The notes under the pieces: model-generated
Seen by the model: the letters and a program-made list of their open reading frames with translations, nothing else
The model's database searches: none
What the model was told of the DNA's origin: nothing
Program-made: the position numbers and the translations under genes
Source: Nitrospirota bacterium
GTDB lineage: Bacteria; Nitrospirota; Thermodesulfovibrionia; Thermodesulfovibrionales; Magnetobacteriaceae
Direction: 5' to 3'
Length of the DNA: 45,542 bases
NCBI GenBank assembly: GCA_015233685.1
Contig: JADFXF010000007.1
Span: 1-45,542, forward strand
In this document: piece after piece, positions 3,387 to 28,386 of the stretch
Layout: every line of letters begins with the position of its first letter
Position numbering within the stretch: the first letter of the stretch is position 1

Positions 3387-5291
3387 ATGCCTGTTGAGAA
3401 TCTTGAGTTTAAAACAGAGATAAACCAGCTCCTCAATCTTATGATTCACTCCTTGTATTCTCACAAGGAGATATTCCTCAGAGAACTGCTCTCAAACGCC
3501 TCTGACGCCATTGACAAGGCCAGGTACGAATCCCTCGTTAACAGCGAGGCCATTACGGATACGGGTGATTGGTCAATTAAAATCATTGCTGATAAAGACT
3601 CTAATACGCTTACCATCAGCGACAATGGTATCGGCATGACCAAAGAGGAAATCATCGCGGAGCTTGGCACTATTGCCCACTCCGGGACGCTTGACTTTAT
3701 GCGCGCCCTAAAAGAAAAGGGCGACATGAACCTCATCGGGCAGTTCGGCGTCGGTTTCTACTCGTCTTTCATGGTTGCCGACAAGGTTACTGTGATAACC
3801 AAAAGCGTAAAGGCGGCCACCGCCGTCAAATGGGAATCAGAGGCTAAGGGCACGTTTACTGTCGAAGACGCCGAAAGACCGTCACGCGGCACAGACGTTA
3901 TCCTGCATATTAAGGATGACGATAAAAAGTATCTTAATCACTGGGAAATCAGCACCGTAGTTAAAAAATACTCCGACTACATTGAATACCCGATAGTTAT
4001 GGATGTCGAGCGCGAAGAGGACAGCGCCCTTGATAAGGGTACAAAGGTGAAGCTGACAAAAGAAGAGACTCTGAACTCCCAAAAGGCCATATGGCTGAAA
4101 GATAAATCAGAGATAACCCAAGAGCAGTATAACGAGTTCTACAAGCATGTCTCTCACGATTTTACCGACCCGTTGACTGTTATACATTTTAAGGCCGAGG
4201 GCACTTCCGAGTTTACCGCCCTGATATACATCCCGTCGCATGTGCCGATGGATATTTTTTATGAACAATTTAAGATAGGCCCGGTGCTCTATGTAAAGAG
4301 GGTTCAGATTATGGACCACTGCGAAGAGCTTGTGCCGAAATATCTGCGATTTATTAAGGGTGTTGTGGACTCCTCGGATTTGCCGTTAAACGTATCAAGA
4401 GAGATACTGCAAAACAACCCGCACGTCAGCGTAATTAACAAAAATATCACAAAAAAAGTCCTCGACACGCTGTCTGATATGGAACAGAAGGACTTCGAAA
4501 AGTACAAGAAATTCTACGAGGAACTCGGCAAGGTACTCAAAGAGGGTGTCCACTTTGACTTCCAGAGGCGGGAGGCGATAGCCGATTTGTTGCTCTTCCG
4601 GTCCACCAAAACGGGCAAAGAGGCCTACACTACGCTGAAAGAATATGTTGACACCATGAGAGAGGGCCAGGAAGAGATTTACTACATCACCGGCTCATCC
4701 TATGACGAGGTGTCACAATCGCCTCACCTGGAGAGCTTTAATGAACAGGGATATGAGGTCCTCTTCATGCTTGATGAGGTGGATGACATCATATTCGGTT
4801 ATTTCGAGTACAAGGGCAAGCGCATGAAGTCCGTCATCAAGGGCAGCGTTGACCTTGATAAGAAAGACGATAAGAAGAAAGAGGAAGAGGGACATAAATA
4901 TGAAAAGCTGCTCGCCCAGATAACGAGTCGCCTGAAGGACGACGTAAAAGAGGTGCGCCTCTCAGGAAGGCTGAAGCAGTCGCCCTGCTGTCTCGTCTCA
5001 GACGAGGGCGCCATTGACCCCGCAATGGAACGGATGCTGCGCTCAATGGGCAAAGACGTCCCCAAAAATATGCGAATCCTGGAGATAAATCCCAACCACC
5101 CACTGATAGAGGCCCTGAGTGGTGCAGTAGAAAAGGGCGAACGTGGTGCGGTAGAAAAGGGCGAAGGCGCAGAGGCCTTGATTGACTTGCTCTATGAACA
5201 GGCCCTTGTGCTTGATGGCAATAAGCCAAAAGACCCGGCAGCGTTCGCTAAGAGGATAACAGAGCTGATGCTTGAGTCGCTGAGGCGTTAG
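3387..5291 (+). CDS. htpG: Molecular chaperone HtpG (Hsp90 family)
   Basis: 634 aa, full length for bacterial Hsp90. ATP-driven cytosolic chaperone that acts as a dimer on late folding clients. The N-terminal GHKL ATPase domain shows the catalytic Glu33 and Asn37 (RELLSNASDAIDKARY), Asp79 in DNGIGM and the glycine-rich lid motif GQFGVGFYSSFM. The middle domain carries the conserved NVSREILQ stretch, and the C-terminal dimerisation domain ends near residue 634. The ATG start is set by AGGAGG at 3371-3376. Near the C terminus (codons 579-594) an 8-residue unit is duplicated in frame, which is not usual for the family. The stop is followed in the same frame, two codons later, by the TTG start of the glycosyltransferase gene. 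Confidence 0.97.
   Translation: MPVENLEFKTEINQLLNLMIHSLYSHKEIFLRELLSNASDAIDKARYESLVNSEAITDTGDWSIKIIADKDSNTLTISDNGIGMTKEEIIAELGTIAHSGTLDFMRALKEKGDMNLIGQFGVGFYSSFMVADKVTVITKSVKAATAVKWESEAKGTFTVEDAERPSRGTDVILHIKDDDKKYLNHWEISTVVKKYSDYIEYPIVMDVEREEDSALDKGTKVKLTKEETLNSQKAIWLKDKSEITQEQYNEFYKHVSHDFTDPLTVIHFKAEGTSEFTALIYIPSHVPMDIFYEQFKIGPVLYVKRVQIMDHCEELVPKYLRFIKGVVDSSDLPLNVSREILQNNPHVSVINKNITKKVLDTLSDMEQKDFEKYKKFYEELGKVLKEGVHFDFQRREAIADLLLFRSTKTGKEAYTTLKEYVDTMREGQEEIYYITGSSYDEVSQSPHLESFNEQGYEVLFMLDEVDDIIFGYFEYKGKRMKSVIKGSVDLDKKDDKKKEEEGHKYEKLLAQITSRLKDDVKEVRLSGRLKQSPCCLVSDEGAIDPAMERMLRSMGKDVPKNMRILEINPNHPLIEALSGAVEKGERGAVEKGEGAEALIDLLYEQALVLDGNKPKDPAAFAKRITELMLESLRR
5121..5168 (+). repeat. 24-bp in-frame tandem duplication within htpG
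   Basis: Two adjacent 24-bp units, 5121-5144 and 5145-5168, encode GAVEKGER then GAVEKGEG. They differ at three bases, one synonymous and two in the last codon. The unit lies in the loop before the last helices of the C-terminal dimerisation domain. Confidence 0.85.
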
Positions 5292-22455: not shown

Positions 22456-22485
22456 TTGACAATGTCCATGTGATGTTGTTATAGT
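22456..22485 (+). promoter_or_regulatory. Predicted promoter of the DUF2760/Hsp70 cluster, leaderless
   Basis: -35 TTGACA (perfect, 22456-22461), 18-bp spacer, -10 TATAGT (22480-22485). The GTG start of the first gene is at 22492, 6 nt downstream, where transcription is expected to begin. Confidence 0.72.
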
Positions 22486-22491
22486 ACTTTC

Positions 22492-23133
22492 GTGCTGGAC
22501 AAGAAAAAACTGTTTATAGTTATTGCGGCCATTACAACTGGTTCTGCGGCCATGATGGCGATGTTGACGATTGCCGCGATTAATATGAACACCCAAAGGA
22601 TGGTACTTGTGGGGATTTTTGTCGCTGCCGGGCTGATTACCTCGGTACTTATCTATGGCGCGGCAAGTGCTCTGATTACGAATTCCTCAGTTGATGCTTC
22701 TGATAAACATACCGCCGCGGACTCCACGGCTGAGGAACGGGTGGCACCTGTGTTCGACCCTAAAGCCGCCCAAACGCTCATGATATTACAGAAGAAAGGC
22801 CGTTTGATAGATTTCCTTCAGGAAGACATAAGCGGATACGATGATAAGCAAATCGGCCACGCCATAAGGGCAATTCACGCCGGATGCAGGGAGGCCCTGA
22901 TGGAATATATGAAAATCGAACCAGTCAGGCACGAACAGGAAGGCCATGAGGTAACGGTTGGGGCGGGCTTTGACCCATCCTCTGTTCGCCTTACAGGCAA
23001 CGTTACAGGGCAGCCGCCGTTTCGCGGCGTGCTGAGGCACTGCGGATGGCGCGTCGTTGCGACCTCTTTGCCTGAGACCTCAGAGGGCCATGACCTCAGC
23101 ATCGTAGAACCTGCCGAGGTAGAAATTCTTTAA
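22492..23133 (+). CDS. DUF2760 domain protein, membrane-anchored
   Basis: 213 aa from GTG 22492, leaderless. Two N-terminal hydrophobic segments (residues ~5-28 and ~38-60) should anchor it in the inner membrane. After a linker, residues ~80-213 form the DUF2760 domain: LMILQKKGRLIDFLQEDISG, AIRAIHAGCREAL, GFDPSSVRLTGNV, FRGVLRHCGWR and a closing IVEPAEVEIL. Its function is not known. It is first in a tight operon with two Hsp70-type genes, an arrangement I believe recurs in other genomes, so a role as membrane-bound partner or regulator of these Hsp70s is inferred. Confidence 0.85.
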   Translation: MLDKKKLFIVIAAITTGSAAMMAMLTIAAINMNTQRMVLVGIFVAAGLITSVLIYGAASALITNSSVDASDKHTAADSTAEERVAPVFDPKAAQTLMILQKKGRLIDFLQEDISGYDDKQIGHAIRAIHAGCREALMEYMKIEPVRHEQEGHEVTVGAGFDPSSVRLTGNVTGQPPFRGVLRHCGWRVVATSLPETSEGHDLSIVEPAEVEIL

Positions 23134-23135
23134 CG

Positions 23136-23167
23136 CGTTAATCGGGATAAACGTTAATTGGGATAAA
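23136..23167. repeat. Two 16-bp tandem repeats before the first Hsp70 gene
   Basis: CGTTAATCGGGATAAA (23136-23151) is directly followed by CGTTAATTGGGATAAA (23152-23167), one mismatch. They sit 2 bp after the DUF2760 stop and about 48 bp before the Hsp70 start, a position suited to a regulator or mRNA signal within the operon. Confidence 0.7.
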
Positions 23168-23214
23168 GATGTGTTGCCACCCGCCTTTTACTCTTAAAAC
23201 ATAAGGAGTTGCCA

Positions 23215-25035
23215 ATGAAAAATTCGCCGTTTATAGTTGGGATAGATTTAGGGACGACCAACTGTGTCGTTTCATATATAGATACGCAAAAGGACGATTT
23301 CCAGTGCAATCTCTTTGAGATACCGCAGGTTACAGATATTGGGGTTATTGAGAAACTACCGTCTTTGCCGTCGTTCTTATATATGCCGCTGGAGTCGGAA
23401 AGGCCGGAGATAAGTTATAAGCTGCCGTGGGACACTACTGAGACAGGAAAATATGTTGTCGGCAAGTATGCCCTTGCGCGCGGCGCACAGGCCCCGACGC
23501 GCGTCATTTCCTCGGCGAAGTCGTGGTTGTGCCACGAGGGGATTGACAGGCAGTCCGCCATACTGCCGTGGGGTGTGCAGGACGCGGGTGAGAAGATGTC
23601 TCCGGTTGCGGTATCCTCCGCATATTTAAACCACATCAGACAGGCGTGGAACCGGGTGATAGCCGAAGGGGCGGACGCGGCACGAAAATTAGAGGCACAG
23701 GACATCTATCTGACCGTCCCGGCGTCGTTTGACGCCGTTGCGCGCGACCTTACAGTGAAGGCCGCCGCTATGGCAGGCCTTCCCGATGTTAATCTGATTG
23801 AGGAGCCTCTTAGCGCCTTTTATGCGTGGGTAAACGGGAAGCCGGACGGCTGGAGGAAGGATGTTACGGTTGGGGATGTGGTTGTGGTCTGCGATATTGG
23901 GGGCGGCACGACTGATTTCAGCCTTATTGAGGTACGTGAGGAAGACGGCGAACTGCTCCTAAAGAGAATCGCCGTGGGAGACCATATACTGCTTGGCGGG
24001 GACAACATGGACCTTATGCTTGCCTATACCGTCAGGAAGAAATTTGCCGACGAAGGTACAACCATTGATTCATATCAAATGATGGGGCTTACTCATAGCT
24101 GCCGTGAGGCCAAAGAGAAAATTCTGAGTGACCCATCCTGCACTAAGGCCGACATAGTAGTGCTTGGGCGGGGACGGTCGGTTGTTGGAGGTACTATCAG
24201 GACAGTCCTTGAAAGACAGGAGGTAGAGCAAGCAATCGTGGAGGGCTTCTTCCCCAGATGCGCCATCAAAGACAATCCAACCGAGAGGCGTTTGTCAGGG
24301 TTTAAAGAACTTGGCCTTCAATATTCCTCAGACCCGGCGGTGACGAAATTCCTGTCGAAATTTCTGAAGCAGCACCTTGGGCAGAAAGAGACATCAAAGA
24401 CATTCATCCACCCCACGAAGATACTCTTTAACGGCGGCGTGACAAAGGGCCAATCTCTGAGGCAGCGTATCAGCGAGGTACTCAGCGGGTGGTTGGAGGC
24501 AGAGGGCGCTGAGGCGGTAACTGTCCTCGCTGGAGATGACCCCGATACGGCCGTTGCCATTGGGGCGGCCTACTATGGTTATACGAAAAGGGGAAAGGGC
24601 ATACGTGTAAGGGGTGGTGCGGGACGTACCTACTACATCGGGGTTGAGACCTCTATGCCGGCGGTGCCCGGTATGGCGGCACCGGTTAAGGCCGTCTGCG
24701 TGGTGCCGTTTGGGATGGAAGAGGGGACAGACACCACTATTGCCGGGCATGTGTTTGGCCTCGTTGTCAGTGAGCAGTCGGTGTTCAGGTTTTTTGGTTC
24801 AAACATCAGAAAGGAAGACACGCCCGGCCAGGTGCTTGACCAATGGGACGAGACAGAGCTTGCTGAGCTTGCCTCACTGGAGACCGCCCTGGAGTCGGAT
24901 GGCGATGAAGGCGCGGTAGTGCCCGTGAAGATTCACAGCTATCTGACTGAGATAGGTACGCTTGAGCTATGGTGTGAGGCCATTGAGGGCCAGAGGAAGT
25001 GGAAACTTGAGTTTAGTGTCCGGCAAGAGGCTTAG
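23215..25035 (+). CDS. Hsp70-family protein (DUF2760-associated, short form)
   Basis: 606 aa from ATG 23215; the TTG at 23209 is rejected because AAGGAG at 23203-23208 would abut it, whereas it is correctly spaced (6 nt) from the ATG. The nucleotide-binding domain has phosphate-1 GIDLGTTNCVVSYID, phosphate-2 VVCDIGGGTTDFSL and adenosine motif ILFNGGVTKG. It also carries SSAKSWLCH, which it shares with its neighbour but not with DnaK. The C-terminal ~130 residues form a short beta-rich domain; there is no DnaK-type lid or EEVD-like tail. No dnaJ or grpE is adjacent. Likely a specialised chaperone-like ATPase working with DUF2760 and the second Hsp70. Confidence 0.87.
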   Translation: MKNSPFIVGIDLGTTNCVVSYIDTQKDDFQCNLFEIPQVTDIGVIEKLPSLPSFLYMPLESERPEISYKLPWDTTETGKYVVGKYALARGAQAPTRVISSAKSWLCHEGIDRQSAILPWGVQDAGEKMSPVAVSSAYLNHIRQAWNRVIAEGADAARKLEAQDIYLTVPASFDAVARDLTVKAAAMAGLPDVNLIEEPLSAFYAWVNGKPDGWRKDVTVGDVVVVCDIGGGTTDFSLIEVREEDGELLLKRIAVGDHILLGGDNMDLMLAYTVRKKFADEGTTIDSYQMMGLTHSCREAKEKILSDPSCTKADIVVLGRGRSVVGGTIRTVLERQEVEQAIVEGFFPRCAIKDNPTERRLSGFKELGLQYSSDPAVTKFLSKFLKQHLGQKETSKTFIHPTKILFNGGVTKGQSLRQRISEVLSGWLEAEGAEAVTVLAGDDPDTAVAIGAAYYGYTKRGKGIRVRGGAGRTYYIGVETSMPAVPGMAAPVKAVCVVPFGMEEGTDTTIAGHVFGLVVSEQSVFRFFGSNIRKEDTPGQVLDQWDETELAELASLETALESDGDEGAVVPVKIHSYLTEIGTLELWCEAIEGQRKWKLEFSVRQEA

Positions 25036-27872
25036 TGTCTGGACACGCGCGATATATCATAGGCATAGACCTTGGCACTACAAACTCCTCTGCCGCATAT
25101 GTTGACACAGAGGCAGGGCAGGAGATTCATATATTTGAAATACCGCAGCTCACAGGCGAAGGACAGGTAGAGGGACGTTCTCAACTGCCGTCTTTTTTAT
25201 ATCTGCCAACCGAATACGAACGCGCGGCTAGCTGCGCCCTGCCGTGGTCGAAAGACGTGCCCTATATTGTGGGTGAGTATGCGAGGGTCAAAGGCGCAAC
25301 TGCCCCGTTAAACCTCGTATCATCGGCAAAATCTTGGCTTTGCCACAGTCGCGTTGGGCGCAAATCCCCGATTTTACCGTGGGGCAGGCAGGACTCAGAC
25401 GGCGGTGGAAAACTCTCCCCCGTTGAGGCGTCCTGCCGCTATTTACAGCACATCGCAGGGGCGTGGGATTATGTCATTGCCCGTGGAGATGCGAAGAAAA
25501 AATTTGAAAATCAAGCGGTAGTAATCACCATACCCGCGTCATTTGACGAATCGGCGAGGGAGCTGACCTCAGAGGCCGCACAAATGGCGGGCATTAAGAC
25601 CTTCACATTGCTTGAAGAACCTCAGGCGGCGTTTTACTCATGGCTTTCTGAACATGAGGACGACTGGCAGTCTATTATTAAACCAAACCAGTTGATTCTT
25701 GTCTTTGACGTTGGCGGTGGGACTACGGATTTTAACCTCATCACACTGAAGGGGCCTGGCGTGTGTCCGGTGTTTCAGAGAATGGCGGTTGGAGACCACC
25801 TGATGCTTGGCGGCGATAACATGGACCTGGCGCTGGCAATGGAGATGGAGGGCCGCATGTTGGGTGGAAGGCGCACGCTTGGCATTGCGGGATGGGTGTC
25901 GTTGTCTGAGCAGTGCAGGTCTGCCAAAGAGGGGCTTCTCTGTGATACCCCCGGCGCACAGGCCTTTGACATTGCCATACTTGGCACGGGGCGCAGCGTC
26001 ATAGGCGGCGCGCTGAAAGGACAACTCACCTACGACGACGTAAGGCGCGTAATCATTGAAGGATTTTTTCGGCAAGTTGATAAGGCAGAGGAGATAAATA
26101 AGGACAAGCGCTCAGGATTTCAGGAACTCGGCCTTCCATACGTAACAGACACGGCGGTGATGAGGCACCTTGCCTCGTTTTTAAAAAGACACGCGCTAAA
26201 CCCTGAGCTGCCCGTTGTCGGCGATGGCGGCGTTAACATCGTACAGCCGGATATTGTCCTGTTTAACGGCGGGGTCTTTAAGGCGTCGCTTATACGGCGG
26301 TGCGCGATTGATGGCTTGAGGCACTGGTTTGGAGGGCAGCCGGATTGGACGCTTGACGTACTTGAAAACAACAGGTTTGACCACGCGGTTTCTTTAGGGG
26401 CGGCGTACTATGGGCTTGTAAAGAGGCAAACGGCATCGGAGGCCGGTACAAAGAAGATAAAGATTTCAGGCGGGCTTGGCAAGGCCTACTACATAGCGGT
26501 CAAAACCGGCGAACCCTCTGATGACGGCCTCATTGCGGCGGCCTGCATAGTGCCGCGGGGGTTTGAAGAGGGTGGAGAGCTGCATATACTTGAGCCGGAG
26601 TTTCATGTTGCCGCCAATACGCCCGTCTCTTTTTCGGTATATTGCTCATCGTACAGGGCAGGTGACAGGCCGGGGGATATTATCAGCTGGCAGAGGGATT
26701 CCTTTGTTGAGCTTCCCCAGATAAAGACTATCCTGCATTACGGGAAGAAGGCCGTCGCCACCGTGCTTCCGGTGTCGCTTGGCATACGCCTCAACGAATA
26801 CGGCACGCTTGACGTGTGGTGCGAATCGAAAAACACAACCCATAAGTGGAAACTTGCCTTTGACATCAGAAAGTCGCCGGAGATGGCGCAGGGTGCGTCA
26901 ATCCACACCCTGAACGAATCCAATGTTGATGACGCCGTCAGACTTATAGAAAGCGCCTTTGCAGGCAACAGTACCGACGACCTCCCGAAGGCCTTGCCGG
27001 GGGCGCTTGGCATAAATAACAAGGCCGATTGGCCGGTGGCGGTTATCAGAAGGATGTGGGATGCGCTGATTGCACTCAGGCAGAGGCGTCTTGTTACGCC
27101 GGGGCATGAGGCGCGATGGCTTAATCTTGCGGGATTTTTGCTGAGACCCGGCTTTGGGCATCCACTGGATGACTGGAGGGTAAAGGAGTTGTGGAAGCAG
27201 TTTTCAGAGGGGGTGCGGTTTTCACGCGACGGGCAGTGCCGCAGCGAGTGGTGGATACTGTGGAGGCGTGTTGCCGGAGGGCTGAGCGCGCAACATCAGG
27301 ACATCATATATAAGCGCATAGCGCCACTGATAATGTCATCTAAGAAGAGGAAAGGCCCGCGCCTTCAGAGTTCGGAGTTAGTGGAGCTATGGATGCTTGC
27401 ATCAAGCCTTGAGCACCTTACGCCTCAGGTTAAGACTGAACTTGGGAATGAGCTTCTTCTTGTAATCAAAAAAGAAAAGGGCAGGGCGCTTGGAAGTCAC
27501 TTCTGGTCTTTATCACGAATAGGGGCAAGGGTGAGTTTTTACGGCCAGTTGGACAGGCAGGTCCCGGTGGATATAGTACAGGGGTGGATTAGGGAATGCC
27601 TTGATATGAGCTGGACAAGGCCGGAGGACACGGCGTATGCGGTTGCCCAACTTGCCAGAAAAACCGGAGACAGGGCAAGGGATATAGATGAGACCCTGCG
27701 GGGAGAAATAGTAAGAAGACTTCTGGCCTATGCCGAGGGGCAGCCACCGGCCAGATGGGCAAGGCGTTTTATAAGGCAGATAGAGGAGGCGACCCCGCTT
27801 GATGGTGCTGACGAAAACGAAATATTTGGGGAATCCCTCCCGATAGGACTTATAGTCAAGGCTGATTTGTAA
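25035..27872 (+). CDS. Hsp70-family protein with C-terminal DUF3731 (long form)
   Basis: 945 aa. GTG 25035 shares one base with the preceding stop (TAGTG), so translation is coupled. The Hsp70 ATPase region covers residues ~1-480 (GIDLGTTNSSAAYVD; SSAKSWLCH; LVFDVGGGTTDFNL; VLFNGGVFKA). A beta-rich region follows, and from ~residue 620 a mostly helical DUF3731 region (IRRMWDALIALRQRR; RWLNLAGFLLRPGFGHPLDDWR; SEWWILWRRVAGGL). The first ~600 residues parallel the upstream Hsp70, consistent with duplication followed by fusion. No obvious frameshift or lost nucleotide-binding motif. The two proteins probably act together. Confidence 0.87.
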   Translation: MSGHARYIIGIDLGTTNSSAAYVDTEAGQEIHIFEIPQLTGEGQVEGRSQLPSFLYLPTEYERAASCALPWSKDVPYIVGEYARVKGATAPLNLVSSAKSWLCHSRVGRKSPILPWGRQDSDGGGKLSPVEASCRYLQHIAGAWDYVIARGDAKKKFENQAVVITIPASFDESARELTSEAAQMAGIKTFTLLEEPQAAFYSWLSEHEDDWQSIIKPNQLILVFDVGGGTTDFNLITLKGPGVCPVFQRMAVGDHLMLGGDNMDLALAMEMEGRMLGGRRTLGIAGWVSLSEQCRSAKEGLLCDTPGAQAFDIAILGTGRSVIGGALKGQLTYDDVRRVIIEGFFRQVDKAEEINKDKRSGFQELGLPYVTDTAVMRHLASFLKRHALNPELPVVGDGGVNIVQPDIVLFNGGVFKASLIRRCAIDGLRHWFGGQPDWTLDVLENNRFDHAVSLGAAYYGLVKRQTASEAGTKKIKISGGLGKAYYIAVKTGEPSDDGLIAAACIVPRGFEEGGELHILEPEFHVAANTPVSFSVYCSSYRAGDRPGDIISWQRDSFVELPQIKTILHYGKKAVATVLPVSLGIRLNEYGTLDVWCESKNTTHKWKLAFDIRKSPEMAQGASIHTLNESNVDDAVRLIESAFAGNSTDDLPKALPGALGINNKADWPVAVIRRMWDALIALRQRRLVTPGHEARWLNLAGFLLRPGFGHPLDDWRVKELWKQFSEGVRFSRDGQCRSEWWILWRRVAGGLSAQHQDIIYKRIAPLIMSSKKRKGPRLQSSELVELWMLASSLEHLTPQVKTELGNELLLVIKKEKGRALGSHFWSLSRIGARVSFYGQLDRQVPVDIVQGWIRECLDMSWTRPEDTAYAVAQLARKTGDRARDIDETLRGEIVRRLLAYAEGQPPARWARRFIRQIEEATPLDGADENEIFGESLPIGLIVKADL

Positions 27873-27953: not shown

Positions 27954-28145
27954 ATGCCATCAACGGAATTTGATCCGAAATACAAACGTCTGGAGGCAAG
28001 GGTCAGCAGTGAGCAAAATCATGATGAGGTCATGGCGCTGGATGAGCAAGACCGCAAAATCTTCGTCTCGGCGCTGCTGAACCCCGAATTACCATCTGGT
28101 CGGCTAAGGAAAGCGGTATCACATTATAAAAAGGGCGTTGATTGA
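27954..28145 (+). CDS. TacA/DUF1778-type antitoxin with apparent internal deletion
   Basis: 63 aa. The N terminus (MPST...KRLEARVSSEQ) matches the first strand of the ribbon-helix-helix domain of DUF1778 (TacA-like) antitoxins. The C terminus (LDEQDRKIFVSALLNPELPS, then RLRKAVSHYKK) matches their toxin-binding tail. Normal members are about 90 aa; here the two parts are joined directly, so roughly 30 residues holding the RHH helices seem to be missing without a frameshift. No GNAT toxin gene follows. It has its own promoter and a strong GGAGGG ribosome site, so it may still be expressed. DNA binding is doubtful. Confidence 0.62.
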   Translation: MPSTEFDPKYKRLEARVSSEQNHDEVMALDEQDRKIFVSALLNPELPSGRLRKAVSHYKKGVD

Positions 28146-28188: not shown

Positions 28189-28386
28189 GTGAAAATAAAA
28201 GCAGTATTTGTTAAAGATGGTGATTGGTGGGTAGCGTGGACAGATGATGTGCCGGGGGCAATAACTCAGGGAAAAACAGTAGAAGAGGCAAGAGAAAACC
28301 TTCTTGACGCAATAAATGAAATGCAAAAACCTTATGATTTAGAATCATTGCCAACGGCGTTCCAACCTCCGCCTTGTCCAATATAA
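28189..28386 (+). CDS. HicB-like antitoxin family small protein
   Basis: 65 aa, GTG start with AGAGGGACGAG upstream. The sequence (MKIKAVFVKDGDWWVAWTDD; PGAITQGKTVEEARENLLDAI) is the partial RNase-H-like fold of HicB/UPF0150 proteins. It lacks the C-terminal HTH or RHH DNA-binding part found in many HicB antitoxins, and no hicA-type toxin gene lies next to it. Such orphan short HicB proteins are common; their function is unclear. Lies 43 nt after the TacA-like gene and 18 nt before the DUF2971 gene. Confidence 0.78.
   Translation: MKIKAVFVKDGDWWVAWTDDVPGAITQGKTVEEARENLLDAINEMQKPYDLESLPTAFQPPPCPI

Follow-up and report, generated by a model that had tools for sequence, protein, structure and literature searches.

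Introduction

Three types of Hsp70 have been distinguished in prokaryotes, DnaK, HscA, and HscC, all of which work with J-domain proteins (PMC8215388), and GrpE is the only exchange factor known in bacteria (PMC4753570). In DnaK, the binding of DnaJ or stimulation by it has been linked to residues R167, N170, and T173 and to the linker D388-L392 (PMC4022485); R167 is bonded by D35 of DnaJ (PMC8215388), and changes in R167 or its partners weaken the stimulation of DnaK (PMC7289447). Less conventional members of the family are also on record, among them E. coli HscC, a specialized Hsp70 that gene neighborhood pairs with the membrane-anchored J-proteins DjlB and DjlC (PMC8215388), and the multiple noncanonical Hsp70s of Myxococcus xanthus, for example, the 925-residue MXAN_5323, which is dispensable for viability and of which a deletion mutant exists (PMC8265645).

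Two eukaryotic systems also bear on the comparison made here. Hsp110 and Grp170 are Hsp70 relatives that stimulate ADP release from a partner Hsp70, and in HspBP1 and Sil1 an armadillo (ARM)-repeat domain wraps subdomain IIB of the nucleotide-binding domain (NBD).

The operon described in this study lies in a 45,542-nucleotide stretch of DNA, called the window below, from a draft Nitrospirota genome (65% complete) near Candidatus Magnetominusculus. It encodes a DUF2760 protein and two dissimilar Hsp70-like ATPases, here called HspA and HspB, and, judged from sequence, it suggests an Hsp70 machine not described before that works without the usual DnaJ and GrpE helpers. Our literature search for DUF2760, DUF3731, PF10816, and PF12531, which had most subscription journals outside its reach, found no account of them, and an earlier description is possible. 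If the reading is true, a widespread Hsp70 pair without J-protein contacts and with its own cofactor would represent a second way to run the Hsp70 cycle, and two domains of unknown function that co-occur in many phyla would acquire a testable role.

Results

The operon consists of the following features (positions in the window).

22456-22485, + strand: sigma-70-like promoter, TTGACA-N18-TATAGT, with TG before the -10 element
22492-23133, + strand: DUF2760 gene, 213 aa, GTG start (PF10816, 4.8e-48); N-terminal transmembrane (TM) hairpin at residues about 4-65, putative cytosolic domain at about 90-213
23215-25035, + strand: HspA gene, 606-aa Hsp70-like ATPase, ATG start with AAGGAG upstream (HSP70, PF00012, 6.7e-20); NBD at residues about 1-460, then a C-terminal domain of about 140 aa, without lid
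25035-27872, + strand: HspB gene, 945-aa Hsp70-like ATPase, GTG start (PF00012, 8e-16; PF12531, 1.6e-79)
26943-27869, + strand: DUF3731-bearing C-terminal part of HspB, residues 637-945

Checking open reading frames and Pfam domains returned the positions, sizes, and domain calls that an earlier note on this DNA had given, including the one-base overlap of the hspA stop with the hspB start (TAGTG); against a gathering cutoff of 25 bits, DUF2760 scores 162.5 and DUF3731 scores 267.7, and PF00012 is over its cutoff as well. The promoter matches at 11 of 12 positions, the top score of its region, and the GTG start of the DUF2760 gene lies about 7 nucleotides past the end of the -10 element, so that a leaderless mRNA is predicted. 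This had been claimed in the note as well, and because the identical element and start-codon spacing recur in five relatives (L031, L032, L033, L034, and L035), the promoter is more than a chance match and the putative leaderless transcript gains comparative backing. Remoter relatives (L037 and L039) have a longer leader with a ribosome-binding site.

Both ATPases align with the DnaK NBD over its full length (hhalign, 5.9e-28 for HspA and 6.4e-30 for HspB) at an identity of about 25 to 27%. The equivalents of DnaK D8, T11, K70, E171, D194, T199, and D201 are invariant among 22 HspA and 16 HspB sequences, and the Lys of the SSAKSWLCH motif common to HspA and HspB is the equivalent of the catalytic K70, which bears out the shared motif and intact ATP sites first read from the sequence. 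The residues that connect DnaK to DnaJ are changed: the N170 position is Glu in all 38 sequences, the T173 position is Gln or Leu in these same 38 apart from one Ile, and the R167 position is never Arg in HspA and is Arg in 3 of the 16 HspB proteins. The VLLLD linker of DnaK is lost as well, being replaced by (I/V)(R/K)(G/A/S)Gx in the 22 HspA proteins, to which the linker comparison applies, as the HspB linker is not alignable. HspA and HspB thus keep all the DnaK catalytic residues checked but lack its J-contact residues.

The domain of about 140 residues that follows the NBD of HspA is the same as the middle domain of HspB (probability 100), while its probability of matching the substrate-binding subdomain SBD-beta of DnaK is only 0.3. 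Sequence thus gives no support to an SBD-beta in either protein, and no relationship of the shared domain to the substrate-binding domain of DnaK could be detected. Profile alignments agree that the DnaK-type lid is missing from both Hsp70s, as HspA stops after the C-terminal domain and DUF3731 gives no lid match. In a phylogenetic tree, HspA forms one clade with support of 100/100, and HspA and HspB are set apart from DnaK, HscA, and HscC by a branch 6.4 changes per site in length; the HspB sequences do not resolve into a single clade, and the branch of YegD is too long for it to be placed. An apparent HspA-HspB fusion in one genome (G672, an open frame of 1,515 aa) was dismissed as a GC-rich artifact upstream of a normal HspB start.

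The AF2 model of the DUF2760 protein (pLDDT 88) contains an N-terminal hairpin of helices 4-32 and 36-65, followed by a small alpha+beta domain. The two helices agree with hydropathy and with the two-helix membrane protein that had been described, and the Lys-rich MLDKKK start together with the even number of helices would, by the positive-inside rule, place the DUF2760 domain in the cytosol. Nine residues are invariant in the family (Q100, R104, L105, D107, F108, D112, D118, G122, and R126). Sequence and fold searches of the PDB and a search of a viral fold library gave no match to DUF2760, and no J-domain was found in it by Pfam or by the PDB sequence and fold searches. Among 68 members, two hydrophobic segments are present in 44, three in 2, one in 3, and none in 19, so that about 68% have an anchor of the TM-hairpin type and 28% have no TM segment; an amphipathic helix in place of the TM segments was significant against shuffled sequences in 2 of 13 TM-less members. 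Membrane anchoring is therefore common but not universal in the family, and the membrane link proposed in the earlier note holds for the protein of the source genome and the hairpin-bearing majority but fails for the 19 TM-less members. Tethering is for this reason not the invariant function; what stays constant in the family is the cytosolic domain.

The DUF3731 region is modeled by AF2 as an all-helical solenoid (pLDDT 84, pTM 0.84), which Foldseek matches to armadillo and HEAT proteins with a probability of 1.00 and a TMq of about 0.5; E values among the matches listed run from 2e-3 to 1e-1 (best, 2.3e-3). We regard DUF3731 as a predicted ARM/HEAT-like solenoid, a resemblance at the level of fold and not of family membership. 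As the predicted fold is of this kind, a binding arm is plausible, and clients, HspA, or something else may be what it binds; the earlier note had suggested a client or partner domain.

Searching 84,980 species genomes yielded 442 confirmed relatives of DUF2760, and the best 80 of these 442 were kept; they span Nitrospirota, Desulfobacterota and other "Deltaproteobacteria," Pseudomonadota, Planctomycetota, Verrucomicrobiota, Rhodothermota/Bacteroidota, Chloroflexota, and Myxococcota. HspA is encoded 3' of DUF2760 on the same strand in 73 of the 75 loci whose contig continues, and HspB is also seen in 43 of those 75; DUF2760 does not occur mostly without these Hsp70s, the outcome that the earlier note had named as refuting its view. 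The exceptions are one locus whose genome carries HspA and HspB elsewhere (L082) and one in which HspB and no HspA was found (L090). Where HspB was not seen beside DUF2760-HspA, 28 of 32 genomes encode DUF3731 elsewhere, and in the closed genome G083 of genus g2, HspB lies more than 600 kb from DUF2760-HspA.

Whole-genome occurrence gives the same picture. The 296 Nitrospirota genomes contain DUF2760, DUF3731, and HspA in exactly the same 12; among 249 Pseudomonadota genomes, DUF2760 occurs in 19, DUF3731 in 18, and both in 18, the contig of the lone exception stopping right after hspA; and among 148 Desulfobacterota genomes, the counts are 17, 16, and 15. Pooled over these three phyla (693 sampled genomes), both domains occur in 45, DUF2760 alone in 3, DUF3731 alone in 1, and neither in 644 (Fisher P of 6e-66, a value that ignores shared descent). 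Distance matrices are congruent (Mantel 0.96 for HspA-HspB, 0.82 for DUF2760-HspA, and 0.80 for DUF2760-HspB), and of 11 plasmid records with DUF2760, 10 also have a full-length HspB. The three genes are inherited as a unit across many phyla, even when they are unlinked, and linkage and genome co-occurrence agree with the view that a specialized Hsp70 pair is tied to DUF2760.

DUF3731 was not found in three Chromatiaceae (L063, L072, and L092) and one metagenome-assembled genome (L089), which keep DUF2760-HspA, and HspA was not found in two genomes that keep DUF2760 and HspB (G714 and G316). At L215 (5019-8645), hspB lies directly 3' of DUF2760, and the genome yielded no hspA. Some of these losses may reflect incomplete assemblies; if the losses are real, DUF2760 serves either ATPase, and it would be the constant member of the three-gene unit. 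Neither this constancy nor the unlinked co-occurrence nor the loss of the J contacts and linker figured in the earlier note.

In the vicinity of 95 related loci, we found no grpE and one J-domain gene, in accord with the lack of an adjoining dnaJ or grpE that had been noted for this operon; another contig of the same genome carries a C-terminal DnaK fragment followed by a DnaJ-like gene. In 11 loci, mostly of Desulfobacterota (L070, L075, L078, L079, L089, L090, L091, L096, L101, L104, and L106), the third gene, after DUF2760-hspA, encodes a separate HEAT/ARM-repeat protein about 290 residues long, often with a 4-bp overlap; in L090 it comes directly after DUF2760. A replacement of DUF3731 by this gene was considered and rejected, because nearly all of those genomes encode DUF3731 elsewhere, and it therefore represents an addition and not a substitute.

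Discussion

Chances are about even, in our view, that the three genes specify a dedicated, self-contained Hsp70-type machine, with DUF2760 in the role of the J-protein, to dock and trigger two paralogous ATPases. HspA and HspB would bind and hydrolyze ATP with the active site of DnaK and without the surfaces through which J-proteins act, and DUF2760 would dock onto them and trigger them in place of DnaJ. We infer that the three products may form a physical complex in which regulation would run from DUF2760 to the ATPases. The TM hairpin would keep DUF2760 on the cytosolic side of the membrane in most species, the solenoid arm of HspB (DUF3731) may grip a client or HspA, and the whole would likely use ATP to handle proteins at the membrane or close to it. 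The TM-less DUF2760 members, the inconsistent gene neighbors, and the shared C-terminal domain, which shows no discernible relationship to the substrate-binding domain of DnaK, were counted against this machine, and on account of the last of these, the chaperone activity of HspA and HspB stays conjectural.

Compared with DnaK-DnaJ-GrpE, the NBDs are homologous and catalytically alike, while the J contacts and the lid have gone, no SBD-beta is recognizable, and two dissimilar ATPases stand with a DUF2760 partner at loci that have no grpE nearby. The closest known arrangement in spirit is that of E. coli HscC with DjlB and DjlC (PMC8215388), with the differences that DUF2760 gives no J-domain match, that there are two Hsp70s here, and that HscC groups with DnaK and HscA in the tree, a long branch away from HspA and HspB. 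MXAN_5323 of M. xanthus (PMC8265645) can be likened to HspB by length and divergence, as a lead only. A more far-reaching proposal is that the operon represents a further type of bacterial Hsp70 machine, beside DnaK, HscA, and HscC, which has given up the J-protein mechanism. DUF2760 would then be a new, non-J cofactor that both stimulates and targets the ATPases, and HspB, with its ARM/HEAT arm, would partner HspA in exchange or client binding in the manner of Hsp110 or HspBP1; this seems to us possible and rather doubtful.

The closest mechanistic analogies for HspB are Hsp70-Hsp110 and HspBP1/Fes1, and they lead to a different division of labor, in which HspB would be the nucleotide exchange factor of HspA and open its NBD, and DUF2760 would only position the pair. 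HspB is, like Hsp110 and Grp170, a longer paralogue of a normal-length Hsp70 with a long helical C-terminal extension, although its extension is the ARM/HEAT-like DUF3731 and its gene sits in an operon with DUF2760; the likeness is one of architecture only. HspBP1 and Sil1 are armadillo proteins (PMC4753570), and together with Fes1 they offer an ARM-type solenoid that acts with Hsp70; this too is an analogy only. DUF3731 does not match them in sequence and forms one protein with an Hsp70 of its own, and HspBP1 is absent among the 50 fold matches listed. The lack of grpE near the loci, the close divergence of HspA and HspB in step (Mantel 0.96), and the separate HEAT/ARM gene in the 11 loci would fit an exchange factor, but a GrpE encoded elsewhere could serve, and HspB keeps a full catalytic set, for which a pure exchange factor would have no use. 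Moreover, the Chromatiaceae with DUF2760-HspA and no HspB found argue that HspA manages without HspB, and G316 and G714 keep HspB with no HspA found. Taken together, we consider an exchange-factor role of this kind unlikely.

Similarly improbable in our view is the proposal that HspA and HspB are not chaperones and act as Hsp70-fold ATP switches, with DUF2760 as membrane sensor or assembly factor in an envelope process. The missing lid and the lack of a detectable substrate-binding domain in both proteins, the absence of a DnaK-type linker in HspA, the long branch to DnaK, HscA, and HscC, and the TM segments of most DUF2760 members are what such switches might look like, but among named families the nearest are Hsp70 chaperones without exception, sensory or enzymatic domains are not attached, and the neighboring genes are inconsistent. 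A mobile fitness or anti-phage module is very unlikely indeed, as its patchy spread over many phyla and its plasmid copies, including one on a conjugative Bradyrhizobium plasmid and one among defense genes on a Thiodictyon plasmid, are set against mostly ordinary metabolic or housekeeping-like genes in the neighborhoods inspected, only weak PADLOC matches in the ATPase region, to one candidate model, and a search of phages that gave no match.

For the dedicated Hsp70-type machine that we prefer, the genes around the operon vary widely between species and therefore indicate no client. A hint at the process served may come from three Magnetominusculus relatives, in which hspB is directly adjoined or overlapped by a gene for a membrane M48 peptidase (L022, 7952-9205; L033, 14420-15670; and L035, 14319-15572); this gene was not found in the 65% complete source genome, and the link is limited to one genus.

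Several further neighbors were recorded. In the window, an Hsp90 gene, htpG (PF00183, 5.8e-133), lies at 3387-5291 (+), about 17 kb upstream of the operon, and two small open reading frames follow hspB at 27954-28145 and 28189-28386 (+), whose products, by eye, resemble a shortened DUF1778-type antitoxin and a HicB-type protein, respectively. On the Thiodictyon plasmid (L016, 1-10608), DUF2760-hspA lies directly downstream of an annotated run of anti-phage genes, and on a Bradyrhizobium plasmid (L019, 16231-18275), groES-groEL comes about 1 kb after DUF2760-hspA-hspB. Directly beside hspB, on the side that faces hspA, three Desulfobacterota genomes carry a gene for a product that begins with HLFYP..IAVVGAS and by eye is presumably CoA-ligase-like (L214, 5985-7433; L216, 8810-10243; and L217, 778-2247).
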